In this document: positions 45,297 through 59,418 of the stretch, piece by piece
How positions within the stretch are numbered: the stretch's first letter is position 1
Layout: each line of letters opens with the position of its first letter
Translations under genes and position numbers: made by a program
The notes under the pieces: model-generated
What the model was told of the DNA's origin: nothing
Database searches by the model: none
The model's input: the letters and a program-made list of their open reading frames with translations, nothing else
Source: Thermoanaerobacter wiegelii Rt8.B1
GTDB lineage: Bacteria > Bacillota > Thermoanaerobacteria > Thermoanaerobacterales > Thermoanaerobacteraceae
DNA length: 64,000 nucleotides
Reading direction: 5' to 3'
Assembly: GCF_000147695.2 (NCBI RefSeq)
Contig: NC_015958.1
Location: 1,666,001 to 1,730,000, forward strand

Positions 45297-47041
45297 GTCT
45301 GTGTCAAGTTTTCGTAGGTAAATTTTTTAAAAATTTTTTGCCTAACTTACCTCACCACCAACACGTAATTCACTTTACTAAATATGAAATATGTTCTATT
45401 TATGTTAAATTATTACTCCGAAAGAAAACAACAAACATCCTAATTTTTTATTACTTTTCAAATGACAAATACTGGCTATTAACCTTCTGCTTTAAACACT
45501 TACTGCCAAACCATTAGCTCGTGTTATCTCTTTTAAAACATATTTTATCCATGGCCTTCCTGCAAATGGACCTTCTAAAATCGGCAGAGACACCTTTAAC
45601 CATTTCTCTATGTCTTCAGCTTTATAATCCTTCCCTGTTTTTGATTGTACTACTTCTTTTAATTTCTCCTGCTTTAAAGGCCAACGCATTGTATAGTTTT
45701 CTAATTCCCCATTTGCCTTTTCCGCTAATATGCGAGACATTCTGTCTCCACCTTCTATTGTCCATCTACAACCAAGCCGCTTCATTCTTCTAGCTATATT
45801 GTGCTGTATTTGCCCTTCTATGGCTCCTAATCGTTCTGTTCCAGGAGAATTTACTATACCTCCCCAGTTATCCAGCAAATACTTTAAAAGCTTAGTAAGT
45901 TTTTTCTTACGTTCTCCTTTGGCTCTCTTTATCGCCTCCCTTAATGTTCCCTCAGTTTTTTGTAGGTCGCCTTGATAAATAGCTTCACGTACTTTGTCAT
46001 AAGTTTCTTCGTCATACCAAAGTGCTTCTGTTAATTGTCTGTTAAGATGATATGGATCTAATCTATACTCTGCAGCAGGAAAATATTCTAAACCCTCTTT
46101 CGGCCATTCTGCTCCGTCTCCTCCTATGTATACTTTCTCTACACCTTCTATATCCCATTTGCATCCCACTTTTGCATAAGTCTCTTCCCATATCTCTTCA
46201 CTATTACCTAATCCACTTACTACTAGCTTGTTCTTCAATCTATATCGCTCTTTATCTATCTTCTCTTTGCCTTCATAGGCTATTAAATGCTTTATTTCTC
46301 CCCTCTTTTTATCTGCTCTTTGTAGTCTTATTATCACCCCGTCACTTTCGATATACAGTCTCTTTGTAACCTTCTCTCCTTTAGGAACCTCTCCATATTC
46401 AAAAACTTCTTTCCTTCTTTCTTCACTATCTTGTTTTAAAATTTCCCCTAATTCCTGTACTGCTTTCCAAATTGTCATTGGACTAATGCCAGGAAAAAGA
46501 TAACTTAATATCTCTGCTGCGCGCCTAAACGGCATTTCTGTACTTAGTTTTACAGCTATCTCTCTTAACCTTGGCGTTATTTGGGAACGGGATGGCCAAC
46601 CCAATAACTCATCTAGCAAAAACTTTGTCTCTCCTGTCTGTTTATTTCTGTAAAGACGCCTCCTGTAAATAAATTCTCCAAATGTACTAACAACCTGTTT
46701 CGCCCTAAATCCTACTACTTCCCATATGTTACGATCACGTTCCTTCATAAGACGAGTATCTATTTCTTCTAAAGCCCATGCAAAAATTTGATTGGAAATT
46801 CTCTGCGTAAGCTCATGTATACCTTCTTCAAGTTCATAAAAGTCTTTGCTTTCTTTTATTATTTTTATTAAACCATTAGCAAAAAGCAGGATTGCACCCA
46901 CTATGTGTCGAATATCTAACATATCAGACCTCACCTTCCTTTTCATTTTTGTTTTTGATTGTGTTTTGGTGGTGAGGTCTTTTTTCTACATTTGACCCCC
47001 TTTTTCCTGCTTCATTTCACCTACTTAAATTTTACACTGCC
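45297..47041 (-). mobile_element. ISLre2-family element #1, intact
   Basis: A 1,745-bp element inserted into the left end of ISLre2 #2, with exact 9-bp target duplications TAGGTAAAA at 45288-45296 and 47042-47050. The ends read GTCTGTGTCAAGTTTTCGTAGGT and, from the right, GGCAGTGTAAAATTTAAGTAGG-type. Confidence 0.85.
45492..46922 (-). CDS. ISLre2-family transposase (UPF0236 type), intact
   Basis: 476 residues. It has the family pattern: an N-terminal helical region (ESKDFYELEEGIHELTQ), LYIESDGVIIRLQ with an acidic residue, VYIGGDGAEWPKEGL and YRLDPYHLNRQL in the core, and SLPILEGPFAGRPWIKY at the end. The ATG at 46922 follows GGTGAGGT, and that site lies in one arm of an inverted repeat (46926-46935 with 46971-46980), so translation from read-through mRNA may be blocked. 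Confidence 0.9.
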   Translation of the reverse strand: MLDIRHIVGAILLFANGLIKIIKESKDFYELEEGIHELTQRISNQIFAWALEEIDTRLMKERDRNIWEVVGFRAKQVVSTFGEFIYRRRLYRNKQTGETKFLLDELLGWPSRSQITPRLREIAVKLSTEMPFRRAAEILSYLFPGISPMTIWKAVQELGEILKQDSEERRKEVFEYGEVPKGEKVTKRLYIESDGVIIRLQRADKKRGEIKHLIAYEGKEKIDKERYRLKNKLVVSGLGNSEEIWEETYAKVGCKWDIEGVEKVYIGGDGAEWPKEGLEYFPAAEYRLDPYHLNRQLTEALWYDEETYDKVREAIYQGDLQKTEGTLREAIKRAKGERKKKLTKLLKYLLDNWGGIVNSPGTERLGAIEGQIQHNIARRMKRLGCRWTIEGGDRMSRILAEKANGELENYTMRWPLKQEKLKEVVQSKTGKDYKAEDIEKWLKVSLPILEGPFAGRPWIKYVLKEITRANGLAVSV

Positions 47042-53089: not shown

Positions 53090-54001
53090 TTGACAGTAGA
53101 AGTAAAGAGAGAAATAAAAGAGAAGAAAGAAGTAAAGGTATTATACATAGAGGCAGATGAAGACCATGTACCTTTACAAGAGGGTGGAGATGAAACACCT
53201 CGATTGGTGTACATACATGAAGGGAGGGAAGAGAGAAACGGAAGAAACGTACTGAAAAATGTGTATTACAAGGCATACGTAGGAGAGAAAGCTGAAGACA
53301 TATGGATAGATGTAGCAAATTACATAGAAGAAAATTACAAGGAAGAGAAGATAGAGAAGATATACATAGCAGGAGATGGAGCGCCGTGGATAAAAGAGGG
53401 ATTAGAGTGGATAGTAAAATCAAGGTTTGTGTTAGACAGATATCATTTAAACAAATACGTATTAAAAGCTACATCGAAAGAGCCAAAATACAGGGATAAG
53501 ATATGGAGAGCAATAAATGAAGGAGATAAAGAAGAACTAAAGAAGGTATTTAATGAACTAATAAAGGTAACAAAGGAAGAGAGAGAAAAAGAGAAGGTAA
53601 AAGAGGCGAAGAGGTACATACTAAATAATTGGGAAGGAGTAGAGATATACAGTAAAGACAAAGATGTAATAGGGTGCAGTGCAGAAGGGCATATAAGTCA
53701 TGTATTTTCTTCTAGATTAAGTAGGAATCCATTAGGATGGAGTAGAGAAGGATTAAAGTTAATGGCGAAATTAAGAGTATTCAGCAAGAATGGAGGAGAT
53801 TTGCGAGAAATAGAATGGGGTAAGAAAGAGAATATAAATGAAGGGAGCTACAAATTAACGAAGAAGCAAATAAAAGAGGCGGTAAGGAGAGTTAAAACGT
53901 CTACAAATGAAAAAATAAATAATATTACGGTTTTGAATATAGGGAAAGTAACACCAATATATAAGGTTTTAAGAGCAATAAAATATGCGCAAGTTATATA
54001 A
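53090..54001 (+). pseudogene. ISLre2 #3 transposase, C-terminal fragment
   Basis: About 303 codons starting abruptly at the transposon junction. [31 protein letters not shown] and [12 protein letters not shown] are the ISLre2 core motifs with all acidic residues, and [20 protein letters not shown] follows. The missing middle between residue 30 and here was lost with the nested insertions. Confidence 0.85.
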
Positions 54002-54107
54002 AATGCATGATAAGTTGAAGGCGGAAATTAACTAAGTTTCAGGGGTTGTCTTAAAAAAATCCTACAGTATCTTGACACTATCTTTTACACTATCCTCCTT
54101 GACTTAT

Positions 54108-55130
54108 TTAGATCACAAACAATACAATATAATACACTATCAAAAGTATTGCACCTAGAGGAACAGCAGTTCGTGCCCATTCTGTACTTTTTATTTTTAA
54201 TTTTCCCGCTGAAATGATGTTTGGAATATTACCTGGAATTAACATCCCTCCACTAATAAGCATTCCCATTAAAATAGCTCTTATCTGTTCCGGCGTCATT
54301 GATGGAGAAATTTCTGCTGCTGCTAGCGTAGCATTATCAACAATTGCGGAAATTGTATTTACCCAGTATAAAAGCTCACTTTTCATTTTAACAATATATA
54401 AATCAATTATAGGCTTAAAACCTGTTCCAAGTAGCTCTAATGCAAAAATAAAGACGAATACTTTAAAAGCTCTAATGAATACTTCTTTTATATTCTCATC
54501 TGCCTCAACATCTTCTGTAGGCTCACCTATCCCACTTTCTCTTTTTGCAAAAAATGTTCCTATTAATCCAAGAGCTAAAATTGCAATTATTATATCAATA
54601 CCTATTAATCGTGCAAGATAAAAGAAGTCCGCATGTAATTTGGATACAACAATAGTAGCCAGTGGCTCTCCTACAGGTGTTAAAACAGCACCAAGGCCTA
54701 TGGAGAAACAAGCAATGACAATCAAATTTATTTTGTTTTTTCTAGTAAGAGGCAAGTAGTTTACGACCTCAACCAAAACCAAAGAGGCAATTATTGCTGT
54801 AATAATGCTTGACATGAGCCCAAGTACCACGATTATAATGAATGCGAAAAGCCTCAAAGATATTTTATCTGCAACTTTTTCAACACCTATTTTCAATTTT
54901 TCTTTTAACAATGTAAAAATTAACCCTGCAATCAAAACTGCCAAAGTAATATAGTAAATGAGTGGATTTTTAAAAATATGGAAAAACAATTCTGCACTAA
55001 ATTGTTTTGACACAATTACAGATATAATTCCCATTGTAAATAAAAAATATTCCAAATTGTGTTCTACCTGCTTTACCACAAATGGCAATAACAGAATAAG
55101 TACTAAAATTACAACTAATGCTGTTACCAT
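54108..55130 (-). CDS. DUF1646-family membrane transporter
   Basis: A 340-residue integral membrane protein with about ten hydrophobic segments. GLGAVLTPVGEPLATI and GNIPNIISAGKLKIKS are repeated re-entrant motifs like those of the ion transporter (ArsB/NhaD) superfamily, and the whole matches DUF1646 proteins found in thermophiles and archaea. The transported ion is unknown. ATG at 55130 follows AAGGAGG; a long upstream open frame to 55262 is not coding. The stop lies 13 bp from the end of the IS nest, so any native terminator has been lost. Confidence 0.8.
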   Translation of the reverse strand: MVTALVVILVLILLLPFVVKQVEHNLEYFLFTMGIISVIVSKQFSAELFFHIFKNPLIYYITLAVLIAGLIFTLLKEKLKIGVEKVADKISLRLFAFIIIVVLGLMSSIITAIIASLVLVEVVNYLPLTRKNKINLIVIACFSIGLGAVLTPVGEPLATIVVSKLHADFFYLARLIGIDIIIAILALGLIGTFFAKRESGIGEPTEDVEADENIKEVFIRAFKVFVFIFALELLGTGFKPIIDLYIVKMKSELLYWVNTISAIVDNATLAAAEISPSMTPEQIRAILMGMLISGGMLIPGNIPNIISAGKLKIKSTEWARTAVPLGAILLIVYYIVLFVI

Positions 55131-55242
55131 ATATATACCTCCTTGTAAGATATATTTAGATACAAAAGAGTATATAAACACGAACATTAACTTTTGAGGT
55201 GCCCCAGGGGTGTTGCAAAGAGTTTTTGTTGTATAATACTCA

Positions 55243-55410
55243 TAGGATAGTGGCATCGACATAAATGCCTTCTGGGAAGCCTTCTACTAGCTTATTCCAT
55301 CAAAATAGCACGTCGCCCATCCCTTGAGTATATACAATTGGGTTAGTTGAGGCCCCCTAGGGTATCCTCGCTTCATATGCAAGGCTGTATACTCAAGTAA
55401 TGTAGGGAGG
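55243..55410 (+). ncRNA. Structured leader of an IS110 remnant, candidate relic bridge RNA
   Basis: Upstream of the IS110 start lie stacked hairpins: GGCAT/ATGCC (55252-55269), CTTC-TGG-GAAG (55269-55279), and a large stem-loop closed by CTTGAGTATATACA (55323-55336) and TGTATACTCAAG (55386-55397) with an internal GAGG..CCCTAGGG..CCTC fold. IS110-group elements encode their bridge RNA in exactly this 5' non-coding end. The element is broken, so this would be a relic. Confidence 0.4.
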
Positions 55411-55454
55411 AACTTATGAAGTCTTTCTAAAAGCATTAAATGAGGTAATTTTTT

Positions 55455-55899
55455 ATGATAAACAATAATATTGTTGTGGGAATTGACGTTTTAAAGGATT
55501 TTAGCTATTTTGCATGATAGGTCTTTAAACATCCTTTGCCGTCAATATTTTAGGTTGTCAGATGATTTTGCAAAGTATAAAAATTACCTCTCTGCTTTGG
55601 TAAGTCAACTCTTTCCATGTTATGACAAAGTATTCTCTGATATTACTTTTGAGTCCTCTTTGTATATTCTTGAAAATTTTTGTTCTCCTAGCAAGCTTTT
55701 AGATGCTGATAAGGAGATTTTAGTGCAAACTATTGCTAAGCTTGCCCGCAAGGGCTACAATTGGGCTTTGAAGAAATATAATGCAAGGTACATTTTTGCT
55801 GTATTAAGGGATGAAGAGCCTTTTAGGTTAATTACTCCTGAAGAACATTTAAAAGCTTTTGAAAAAGCGAGATTAAACTCATCGAAGATTTCTGCATAG
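55455..55899 (+). pseudogene. IS110-family transposase, N-terminal remnant with internal deletion
   Basis: ATG at 55455 behind GAGG begins MINNNIVVGIDVLKDFSYFA (the RuvC-like DEDD start) and hits TGA at 55515. The next frame (55518 onward) continues with SLNILCRQYFRLSDDFAKYKNYLSAL and VFSDITFESSLYILENF, the helical region normally about 100 residues further on. The intervening part is deleted. The last 35 residues do not look like IS110 and may be junction sequence. Confidence 0.7.
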
Positions 55900-56013
55900 T
55901 AATTTTGATTTTCTACTTTACTTTTTCTAGTTGCGGTAAAGTCTTTTTTCGATACTTAAGTGCCTTTTTCCTTCTTAGACCACCTACTTAAATTTTGCAC
56001 TATCCTTTTGATA
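55900..56013 (-). mobile_element. ISLre2 end fragment (#4)
   Basis: ACCACCTACTTAAATTTTGCACTATCC at 55979-56006 matches the right ends of ISLre2 #1 and #2 closely, and the upstream AT-rich leader resembles their leaders weakly. No coding part remains. Confidence 0.55.
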
Positions 56014-56199
56014 TGAAGGACTTTAGACTGTAGACAAAGTCCACATGCATAAAAAGTGGGGTTTCTCTTCAATCTGAAAGAACCATTTTAGGTTCTTAAT
56101 AACGCGCGTGCCTTTGAGAAAATTAATTTAGATTGTTCTGTGGCCACTCTTAGTATCTCCTGTAGTCCAGTAATCTGGTAACTGTTCGGAAAAGGTAAG
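56014..56199. other. Degenerate sequence between IS fragments
   Basis: About 190 bp with no gene that I recognise. It may be decayed IS110 coding sequence linking the two IS110 remnants. Confidence 0.3.
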
Positions 56200-56475
56200 A
56201 TCCATTCGATGTGACATATACTTCTTACTGCTACCAGTTAAGTAATTTTGACGCTGAAGAACATCGTTTGACTAAAAATAGAAATCGCTACTTCCGATAT
56301 TACTTGGCACAAGCTACCAACTCGTTGTGGGTGCACAACGAGGAATACAGGACCTATTATCAATCAAAGTATGTGAGGTAACCGAACATCAACATAAAAG
56401 AGCGCTGGTATTGACTACGCGCAAGCTTACAAAGCTGGCCTTTGCTTAGCTAGAGCAAAGGCCAAATATACAAAG
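56200..56475 (+). pseudogene. IS110-family transposase, C-terminal remnant
   Basis: The translation (with frame changes) gives SNFDAEEHRLTKNRNRYFRYYLAQATNSLWVHNEEY, then VTEHQHKRALVLTTRKLTKLAFA, the conserved IS110 C-terminus. Two single-base deletions are visible: a missing G near 56379 (YVEVTEHQ expected) and a missing T near 56448 (FALARAKAKYTKGKR expected). Probably the other end of the element that starts at 55455. Confidence 0.75.
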
Positions 56476-56682
56476 GGAAAGAGGTGATTTGCTAATTTTA
56501 GTTTAAATGAAATAAATTATAATGAACCCCAACTTTTATCATAGAGTTTGGAGAAGAGGAAGGAGTATTATTATACTTTTTTCCTTAAAAACTTTAATTT
56601 CCATTTTTAGAGTCTTGACATTATGGTTTGAAACTATCGCTTCACTTTATTTGTTACTTACACTAATTCCTAGCAAACCACT
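56476..56682. other. Non-coding gap before the Ca2+ ATPase stop
   Basis: About 200 bp, AT-rich, with no gene or clear terminator. Confidence 0.4.
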
Positions 56683-59418
56683 TTATTTTCTTAACAAAAG
56701 TTTACTTAACTCGGCAACTGTAAATGGAATTAAACTGAAGGCAACAATTATGAGCCAATCAAAGTATGATAAAGTAACAGTGTTAAAAACAGTTCTCAAA
56801 AATGGTAAATATATAACTCCTATGAGCAGTAATAATGATAACATTGTACTTGCTACCATATATTTATTCTTAAAGAAACCTATCTTAAATACTGAGAACC
56901 TTTCAGAACGCGCAGTATACGCTCTTAAAAGTTCCCCAAATATCATCGTGGCAAACGCATATGTTCTCGCGGCTTGAATTTCACTCGTGTAATGTAACCC
57001 ATAAATGAAAGTCCCAAGAACAGCTACAGTTAAAGCTGTGCCTTGAACAGCGATCTGGATTTGCATACTCTTGTCTATAATAGGTTCATCTGGTTTTCTC
57101 GGTGGTTTTTGCATTATGTCTGGCTCTTTACCTTCCATACCCAGAGCCAAAGCAGGAAAGGCATCTGTGAGTAGATTTACCCACAGTAATTGTATTGGTT
57201 TTAATGGAACTGGAAGACCCATTAGCATTGCAAGAAAGATAATTAAAATTTCAGCTATATTACATGATAAAAGGTAAAATATGAATTTCCGTATATTCGA
57301 GTATATTATTCTACCCTCTTCCACTGCTGCTACAATACTCGCAAAATTATCATCAGTTAGAATCATGTCCGCGGCTTCTTTAGCAACGTCTGTACCAGTA
57401 ATTCCCATAGCTACACCTATGTCAGCTTTCTTTAAAGCAGGCGCATCATTGACACCATCACCTGTCATAGCAACAATCTGCATATTTCTCTTTATGGCAT
57501 CTACAATCTTCAATTTGTGCATAGGTGAAACTCTCGCATAAACCGAAACATCTTTTACATTCTCACTTAGTTCTTTTTCATCTAGTTTATCAAGCTCTAA
57601 ACCAGTAAGAACCTGGTTTTCATTTTCTATCATTGAAAGTTCTTTAGCAATAGCTACAGCAGTATCTTTATAATCACCTGTTATCATAACCGGTTTTATT
57701 CCTGCTCTTTTACATACTTTTATTGCTTCCTTAACCTCGGGCCTTGGTGGATCAATCATTCCTATTAAGCCAACAAATATTAAATCTTTTTCTATGTTTT
57801 CTGGTTCTGGAGTTTTCGGAATACTTTCTAATTCTTTATACGCAATAGCAAGAACTCTTAGTGCTTGGCTTGCCATTTCGTGATTAGCGTTTAAAGCTTC
57901 TTGCTTATTTTTTTCGGTTATAGGTACTATTTCACCCTCCTTATATATACGAGAAGAAAGATTGATTATTATATCAGGTGCACCTTTGATGAACGCAACA
58001 TACCCTTTCCCAGCAGGATGGAAGGTAGTCATTCGTTTTCTTTCAGAATCAAATGGTATTTCTTGAAGACGTGGCATAACTTTTTCAAGATCCTTAGAAT
58101 ACATGCCACCCTTAGCTGCAGCTACAACAATAGCTCCTTCTGTAGGATCGCCGATTATACGCCATTTCTTCTCTTCATTTGCAACCGTTTCTTCAAGTTT
58201 TGCGTCATTACAAAGTAGACCTATCGTCAATAATTGCCTTAGATTAACATCTTCTATAGGATTTACTTCTACACCATCCAAATAAAATTTTCCTTCAGGA
58301 TTATATCCTTCACCGCTTACGTCATAAAACTTTCTATTTGTATATATTTTTGTTACTGTCATCTCATTCTGTGTAAGAGTACCGGTTTTGTCCGAACATA
58401 TAACTGTTACACTGCCTAATGTCTCAACAGCATGTAGTTTTTTTACTATTACATGACGTTTTACCATTCTTTGCATACCAATAGCCAAAACTATGGTAAT
58501 CACAGCAGGAAGTCCTTCTGGAATAGCTGCTACTGCTAGACTAACCGCAGTCATAAACATTTCAAGTACGGGAATACCTCTTATCAACCCTATAACAAAT
58601 ATTACCCCGCATATTACAAGACTCGCAATACCCAATATTTTACCAGTATCTGCTAGTTTCCTTTGCAGAGGTGTAGCTTCTTCGGAAGTTGTTTGAATCA
58701 TCTCAGCTATTTTTCCTATCTCGGTGTTCTTCCCTGTATTTACTGCTATACCTTTACCTCGGCCATGAGTAACTACTGTTCCCATAAAGGCACAGTTTAT
58801 TCTGTCGCCTAAAGATACCTCATCTTTTAATACAATGTCTGCATTTTTATCTACAGGAACCGACTCCCCTGTTAATGATGCTTCGTCAATCTTTAAATTG
58901 ATACATTCGACTAGTCGCAAATCTGCTGGTACATAATTTCCCGCTTCAAGTAAAACAACATCTCCCGGAACTAATTCACGAGCAGGGATTTCTATTATAT
59001 GCCCATCGCGAATTACTTTTGCTTCTGGGGCTGCCATCCTTTTTAAGGCTTCCATCGCTTTATTAGCCCTTGATTCTTGGACAGCTCCTAAAATAGCGTT
59101 TAATATGACAATTAGTATGATTACTACTGAATCAGTAACCTCACCTATCAAGATAGAAATTACACTCGCTATTATAAGAATTATAACAAGAAAATCCTTA
59201 AATTGATTTAAAAAAATCTCAAATAATGTAACTTCCTTTTTACTTACAATCTCATTGTATCCGTAAGTTTTCAGCCTTTCATTTGCAATATCAGAAGAAA
59301 GACCACCGGTAAGAGATACATTCAACATTTCGACAACTTCATGCTTGTCTAATAAATGTACTTTATTTTCGGTCATTTCTTTTGTCATTTTCCCTATACT
59401 AGTCAATTCATCTGTCAC
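56683..59418 (-). CDS. P-type Ca2+-transporting ATPase (type IIA)
   Basis: A 911-residue cation pump. TGESVPV (actuator domain), SDKTGTLTQNEM (phosphorylated Asp, about residue 350), KGAPD, MITGDYKDTA and MTGDGVNDAPALKKADIG are all intact. VAAIPEGLP in M4 and the NIAEILIIF region in M5 follow SERCA/PMCA-like pumps, which export Ca2+ with ATP. The frame opens with GTG at 59418, but TTG or ATG codons within the next 16 residues are also possible starts because the GAGAGGG site abuts the GTG. Confidence 0.93.
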   Translation of the reverse strand: MTDELTSIGKMTKEMTENKVHLLDKHEVVEMLNVSLTGGLSSDIANERLKTYGYNEIVSKKEVTLFEIFLNQFKDFLVIILIIASVISILIGEVTDSVVIILIVILNAILGAVQESRANKAMEALKRMAAPEAKVIRDGHIIEIPARELVPGDVVLLEAGNYVPADLRLVECINLKIDEASLTGESVPVDKNADIVLKDEVSLGDRINCAFMGTVVTHGRGKGIAVNTGKNTEIGKIAEMIQTTSEEATPLQRKLADTGKILGIASLVICGVIFVIGLIRGIPVLEMFMTAVSLAVAAIPEGLPAVITIVLAIGMQRMVKRHVIVKKLHAVETLGSVTVICSDKTGTLTQNEMTVTKIYTNRKFYDVSGEGYNPEGKFYLDGVEVNPIEDVNLRQLLTIGLLCNDAKLEETVANEEKKWRIIGDPTEGAIVVAAAKGGMYSKDLEKVMPRLQEIPFDSERKRMTTFHPAGKGYVAFIKGAPDIIINLSSRIYKEGEIVPITEKNKQEALNANHEMASQALRVLAIAYKELESIPKTPEPENIEKDLIFVGLIGMIDPPRPEVKEAIKVCKRAGIKPVMITGDYKDTAVAIAKELSMIENENQVLTGLELDKLDEKELSENVKDVSVYARVSPMHKLKIVDAIKRNMQIVAMTGDGVNDAPALKKADIGVAMGITGTDVAKEAADMILTDDNFASIVAAVEEGRIIYSNIRKFIFYLLSCNIAEILIIFLAMLMGLPVPLKPIQLLWVNLLTDAFPALALGMEGKEPDIMQKPPRKPDEPIIDKSMQIQIAVQGTALTVAVLGTFIYGLHYTSEIQAARTYAFATMIFGELLRAYTARSERFSVFKIGFFKNKYMVASTMLSLLLLIGVIYLPFLRTVFNTVTLSYFDWLIIVAFSLIPFTVAELSKLLLRK

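Follow-up and report, generated by a model that had tools for sequence, protein, structure and literature searches.

The stretch 55243-55410 of the window (G000:C1:1666001-1730000, the whole 64-kb stretch of DNA analysed here, taken from a 2.79-Mb one-contig genome) very probably comes from a dead insertion sequence of the IS110 group, being the portion of its left end that specifies the bridge RNA, and, with the same high confidence, this relic is assigned to a clade of clostridial elements in which the bridge RNA is addressed to Shine-Dalgarno (SD) sites. A relic IS110 bridge RNA had been proposed at this position from the letters of the DNA and its open reading frames (ORFs) (hereafter, the sequence-only reading), and the proposal is now borne out by homology, covariation and the agreement between guides and targets.

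The left ends of intact relatives contain a conserved RNA, and 32 of them, with the relic left out, served to build a covariance model, R1. R1 matched positions 55316-55406 with 57.4 bits (E 1.7e-12), the sole match with E<=10 on both strands of the 64-kb window, and two of the 16 modelled pairs are non-standard in the aligned relic. Over the whole genome, the only R1 matches were the two copies of the relic. R1 matches are present in 15 of the 37 genomes of the class and protein matches, relics included, in 19; the relatives were also taken as 80 named loci. Some strains have many live copies, such as Petroclostridium sp. X23 with five, and Lachnospiraceae bacterium A2 or 3-1. Both Pfam domains of IS110, PF01548 and PF02371, were found in all three relatives scanned. 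As expected of a bridge RNA, the non-coding RNA is located in the left end and precedes a DEDD/IS110 recombinase gene. An Rfam search of 53900-56700 returned nothing relevant, with one sub-threshold rli22 match at 56537-56629.

The 12-bp stem at 55323/55386 with a GC-rich internal fold, described in the sequence-only reading, is real: CTTGAGTATATACA faces TGTATACTCAAG, the inner fold is GAGGCC...CCTC, and this closing stem covaries among the 32 relatives. There, 95 cells are changed on both sides compared with 32.6 after shuffling, all ten pairs of the stem show changes on both sides, and the covariation score was reached by none of 500 shuffles and by no slid version. Alignment with the upstream regions of intact IS110 elements showed the region to be conserved among them; the lack of conservation that had been named as a reason to abandon the proposal was not observed.

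In the relatives, a target-binding loop is followed by a donor-binding loop, each consisting of a guide, a GGG stem, a hairpin, a CCC-like stem and a guide. Both loops are recognizable in the relic, the donor loop by covariation and the target loop by its homologous layout. Accordingly, the expected arrangement of guide loops was correct as far as the two loops are concerned, but the 12-bp stem closes only the donor loop, whereas the target-binding loop lies upstream, at 55263-55308, within what had been described as small hairpins. The hairpin 55252-55269, previously taken for the 5' stem-loop, shares bases with the left target guide and probably does not represent the conserved 5' stem-loop. 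The parts of the RNA are as follows.

55232-55237, + strand: TATAAT, an internal -10-like box that closely precedes the bridge RNA; similar boxes occur at about the same distance in most of the 42 relative types
55244-55410, + strand: relic bridge RNA, with probable ends placed from the -10 box and the relatives
55263-55273, + strand: left target guide, AAAUGCCUUCU here and AAAUGCCUCCU in the other copy, preceding the GGG stem as in the relatives
55274-55298, + strand: apical hairpin of the target-binding loop, GGGAAGC...GCTTATTCC, from sequence and homologous position
55299-55308, + strand: right target guide AUCAAAAUAG, which predicts CTATTTTGAT; the uninterrupted locus has CTACTTTTGCAT
55316-55406, + strand: donor-binding loop domain, matched by R1
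55323-55336, + strand: 5' side of the donor-loop closing stem, supported by fold and covariation
55340-55348, + strand: left donor guide, drifted by comparison with the relatives (GGGUUAGUU versus GGCUGGUU)
55379-55384, + strand: right donor guide GCAAGG, in agreement with the left end of the element, which begins with T
55386-55397, + strand: 3' side of the closing stem, pairing with 55323-55336 and covarying with it

The left boundary of the element is defined by the adjacent DUF1646 gene (Pfam PF07854, E 2.1e-156; an ORF of 340 aa), whose start codon lies 7 nt from the left target. At the junction, ATATACCTCCT is joined to TGTAAGATATA, and the CCTCCT in the left target is the complement of the DUF1646 Shine-Dalgarno sequence. 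In the other DUF1646 loci of the genus, similarity to the window breaks at 55143, or at 55140 in two of them, and the sequence then differs; the break thus falls directly after the CT at 55142-55143, as it should for an IS110 core dinucleotide. Because the uninterrupted DUF1646 loci diverge at or within 3 nt of 55143, the region 55243-55410 is not descended from the DUF1646 promoter, the other origin that had been considered for it. The left end of the relic, about 310 nt in length, begins with the following features.

55133-55143, + strand: left target ATATACCTCCT with the CT core at 55142-55143, complementary to the DUF1646 Shine-Dalgarno AGGAGG; homology to the DUF1646 locus ends here
55144-55154, + strand: first bases of the left end, TGTAAGATATA; the live relatives L045 and L047 have the same start
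55146-55151, + strand: -10-like TAAGAT in the left end

When the ends are joined at the junction of right end and left end (RE-LE), a -35-like TTGA(C/T) stands 17 nt from the left-end -10 box in 70 of 70 relatives; together they would make a promoter across the junction, of which the relic retains only the -10 half. A scan found no promoter reading out of the left end into DUF1646.

The correspondence of guides with targets and donors was examined in a survey of 133 loci, 34 of which, including both relic loci (L190 and L199), were dropped for want of a recognized donor loop or left end. The remaining 99 loci represent 77 distinct sites, of which 75 have 40 nt of flank or more; the right end is present in 70 of these, and the right target could be compared in the 68 that have both a right target and a right guide. 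The cores of the relatives, CT or CC, were built into the search pattern and hence provide no independent test of the core. Over the 75 sites, the left target guide agrees with the left target of its own element at an average of 5.25 out of 7 positions (permuted mean 4.07, maximum 4.45 of 5000), with the reservation that the register of this guide was picked partly by likeness to CCTCCT, which inflates its agreement with the SD and raises both the observed and the permuted figures for the left target. The tests of the right target guide and the right donor are independent of this choice. The right target guide agrees with the right target at positions +1, +2 and +3 in 57, 45 and 36 of the 68 sites, counts that none of 5000 permutations reached (the permutation maximum at +1 being 41), and matches at +4 to +6 are not above permutation in the same 68 sites. 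In 70 of the 75 relatives, the first base of the element can pair with the right donor guide.

In the relic itself, the left guide matches its left target at 6 of 7 non-core positions in the second copy and at 5 of 7 in the window copy; the right guide predicts CTATTTT, and the uninterrupted locus, from which the right target of the relic is deduced, reads CTACTTTT. Target guides thus match the left and right targets around the core both across the clade and in the relic. Among the donor guides, the right one fits the left end of the element, whereas the left one carries two changes (GGGTTAGTT versus GGCTGGTT), and the right end that it would address is lost. The suggestion that even a relic would predict the target and donor cores of live relatives is upheld on the target side and, among the donor guides, for the right one; it fails for the drifted left donor guide.

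The left target guide of the clade is mostly (U)CACCUCCU-like, and 14 of the 31 distinct left guides end in CCTCCT. The flank of the 75 insertion sites ends in exact CCTCCT in 45 cases and in a one-mismatch variant in 15, compared with 0.8% and 5.4%, respectively, of the CT-ended six-mers of the same loci. An ORF start codon lies 4-14 nt away on the opposite strand at 50 of the 75 sites, versus 2238 of 14800 random flank positions (15%). The most frequent guides continue to UCACCUCCU, a sequence similar to the 3' tail (anti-SD) of 16S rRNA. Judging from these sequences, the guide of the live relatives appears to send them into ribosome-binding sites just before genes. We consider it fairly probable that in this IS110 clade, and perhaps also in a second, unrelated lineage, the target guides imitate the 16S anti-SD tail, a universal address in many bacterial genomes, and that the element inserts in antisense at the ribosome-binding site, where the SD and the start codon remain joined, so that the gene can still be translated although its upstream promoter region is lost. 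Host genes may in this way come under the control of the element's end. In the main texts of the open-licence papers searched on IS110 elements and bridge RNA, an SD address of IS110 elements was not found.

Among the alternatives, the view that nothing more than the divergent promoter or 5' leader of DUF1646 is present here, with incidental hairpins, is hardly credible. The region does lie directly upstream of DUF1646, and the 168-nt stretch is no more stable than its shuffles (z +0.47 on the + strand and -0.56 on the - strand), but the uninterrupted DUF1646 loci lack it, with homology stopping at the element boundary, and it matches a model made from IS110 left ends alone. It is also very improbable that this is an IS110 end whose conserved RNA acts as a leader regulating the recombinase and not as a bridge RNA, with the SD preference due to the protein or to chance. 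The conserved RNA does sit upstream of the recombinase gene, and, as far as the open text of the IS621 paper goes, the target logic of that element was proven experimentally (PMC11208160), whereas the present clade is known from sequence. However, the right target guide covaries with the right target, the left guide with the left target, and the right donor guide varies with the element's initial base; a leader would not yield these three agreements. A further alternative, which we regard as unlikely without dismissing it, is that the clade targets C-rich CCNCCT words, most of which are SD complements in AT-rich clostridial genomes, and not the SD as such. The variation of the guides (CCCCCU, CUCUCCU, ACUCCU) and the two or more mismatches to CCTCCT at 15 of the 75 sites agree with such word targeting, but the commonest guides extend to a sequence like the 16S tail, and a start codon is found at SD distance at two-thirds of the sites. 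Aiming at the SD and aiming at C-rich words predict nearly identical sites, and the choice is partly one of wording.

Several observations weigh against the interpretation of the region as a relic of an SD-addressed bridge RNA. Apart from the choice of register, the deduced right target of the relic, the +4 to +6 positions and the sites with two or more mismatches, these are the fold stability, which alone equals that of shuffles; the 25 of 75 sites without an ORF start under the criteria used; the poor fit of the three GAM79 sites having a right target to their right guide; the score of the relic recombinase piece 55510-55899 against DEDD_Tnp_IS110, which at 14.1 bits is under the Pfam cut-off of 29; and the loss of the right end of the relic together with the drift of its left donor guide.

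By analogy with IS621, insertion of a bridge-RNA element here would have started with the recombinase binding the bridge RNA. The target loop would then have opened the CCTCCT beside the start codon, the donor loop would have paired with the joined RE-CT-LE circle, and strand exchange at CT would have placed the element in antisense orientation relative to the gene. The RE-LE junction of live relatives would supply a promoter for the RNA, and the SD would stay on the gene's side after insertion. Expression of the RNA, its binding by the recombinase and its activity are likewise expected by analogy. The copy in the window is capable of none of these steps.

The decay of the element is extensive. 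The recombinase gene starts with ATG at 55455, in a frame reading towards GIDV; the open piece 55510-55899 corresponds to residues ~137-218 and then the C-terminus of the intact relative L045. Beyond 55935, the sequence is the end of an ISLre2-like element (UPF0236, Pfam PF06782), which indicates that the IS110 right end has been lost. With two internal deletions and no right end, the relic, as judged from its sequence, is inactive.

55455-55899, + strand: broken IS110 recombinase gene, whose open piece has lost the greater part of the DEDD domain and a long central segment
55935-56009, + strand: end of the ISLre2-like (UPF0236) element, 78% identical over 68 nt to the element end at 46971-47038 and occupying the expected place of the IS110 right end

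The second copy of the relic lies within a 97.6% duplicate of 54093-55784, found in the same genome at about 55.05-56.74 kb; the donor loops of the two copies are identical, and their left target guides differ by one base. DUF1646 is present three times in the genome, at 47.3-48.3 kb (without the element), at 55.6-56.7 kb and in the window; one copy retains the original upstream side and another a tadA-like downstream neighbour, and the original locus was therefore split by duplication. The segment with DUF1646 and the relic is bracketed by ISLre2-like ends at 54062-54093 and 55935-56009, as if moved as a composite unit. The possibility that the IS110 element itself moved the duplicated segment, whose left edge is at CCTCCT, was dropped because comparison with other genomes shows ISLre2-like ends and a tadA neighbour at that place instead. 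In other genomes of the genus, differing sequences upstream of DUF1646 (L079, L080 and L078) are joined at the same DUF1646 Shine-Dalgarno site; these junctions suggest that the site is a hotspot.

A second IS110 lineage in the same genome comprises five copies (L026-L030, with 433-aa and 257-aa frames) that R1 does not match and that have a different right end, ACCGAAATACTT. Their left flanks end in CCTCCT or CCTCCCT in all five cases, with candidate CAT codons to the left, and their left end contains a candidate guide, CGTCCTCC; SD-addressing may thus have arisen more than once. In the relative L064, the left end begins at TATAATTATTTT, without the usual TG and core, and the left junction looks rearranged; its right side, CTCGTTT, is a perfect fit to its right guide. 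Within the window, 56211-56460 holds frame fragments with HKRALVLTTRKLTKLAFA, resembling the C-terminus of another recombinase relic, presumably of the IS110 family. Short DNA matches to the relic in four genomes (G001, G006, G009 and G000; 41-42 bits) were set aside, no IS110 gene being found nearby in the two loci inspected, and a 73-nt DNA match in a further genome (L033 in G003) appears to be a further relic fragment.

If the SD address is true, RNA guides are directed against a motif that is hard for bacteria to give up; this would account for both the portability of a site-specific element between hosts and its high copy number, and each insertion would be a possible regulatory change of one gene. 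The clade also supplies naturally diverse bridge RNAs with matched targets and ends, some of them from thermophile relatives of the window's genome, for testing guide rules beyond IS621.

By its anatomy and the agreement of its guides, the element belongs, at the level of sequence, to the IS110 bridge-RNA type known from IS621. According to the open text of Durrant et al. 2024 (PMC11208160), IS621 carries a non-coding RNA in its left end, upstream of the DEDD recombinase, and it shares with the relic clade the order of target loop and donor loop, the CT core, the promoter across RE-LE, and the mode of pairing, in which the 5' side of the loop pairs with the bottom strand and the 3' side with the top strand, core included. 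Unlike IS621, the relic clade has a longer left end, an extra -10-like box before the RNA and SD-complement targets; the terms 'ribosome binding', 'start codon' and 'clostrid' are all absent from the text of that paper (PMC11208160). The seekRNA of IS110/IS1111 elements, as presented in the text of Siddiquee et al. 2024 (PMC11187229), is likewise a guide RNA from a non-coding region that selects the target, and a longer non-coding region upstream of the gene is described there for the IS110 family; in contrast to the present clade, the target sites described there are not SD sequences, and 'ribosome binding site' is used in that text only for a cargo gene. The REP-targeting insertion sequences, in the text available (PMC1525189), also use a repeated genomic address, but theirs is the REP palindrome, whereas the address here is the SD upstream of genes.
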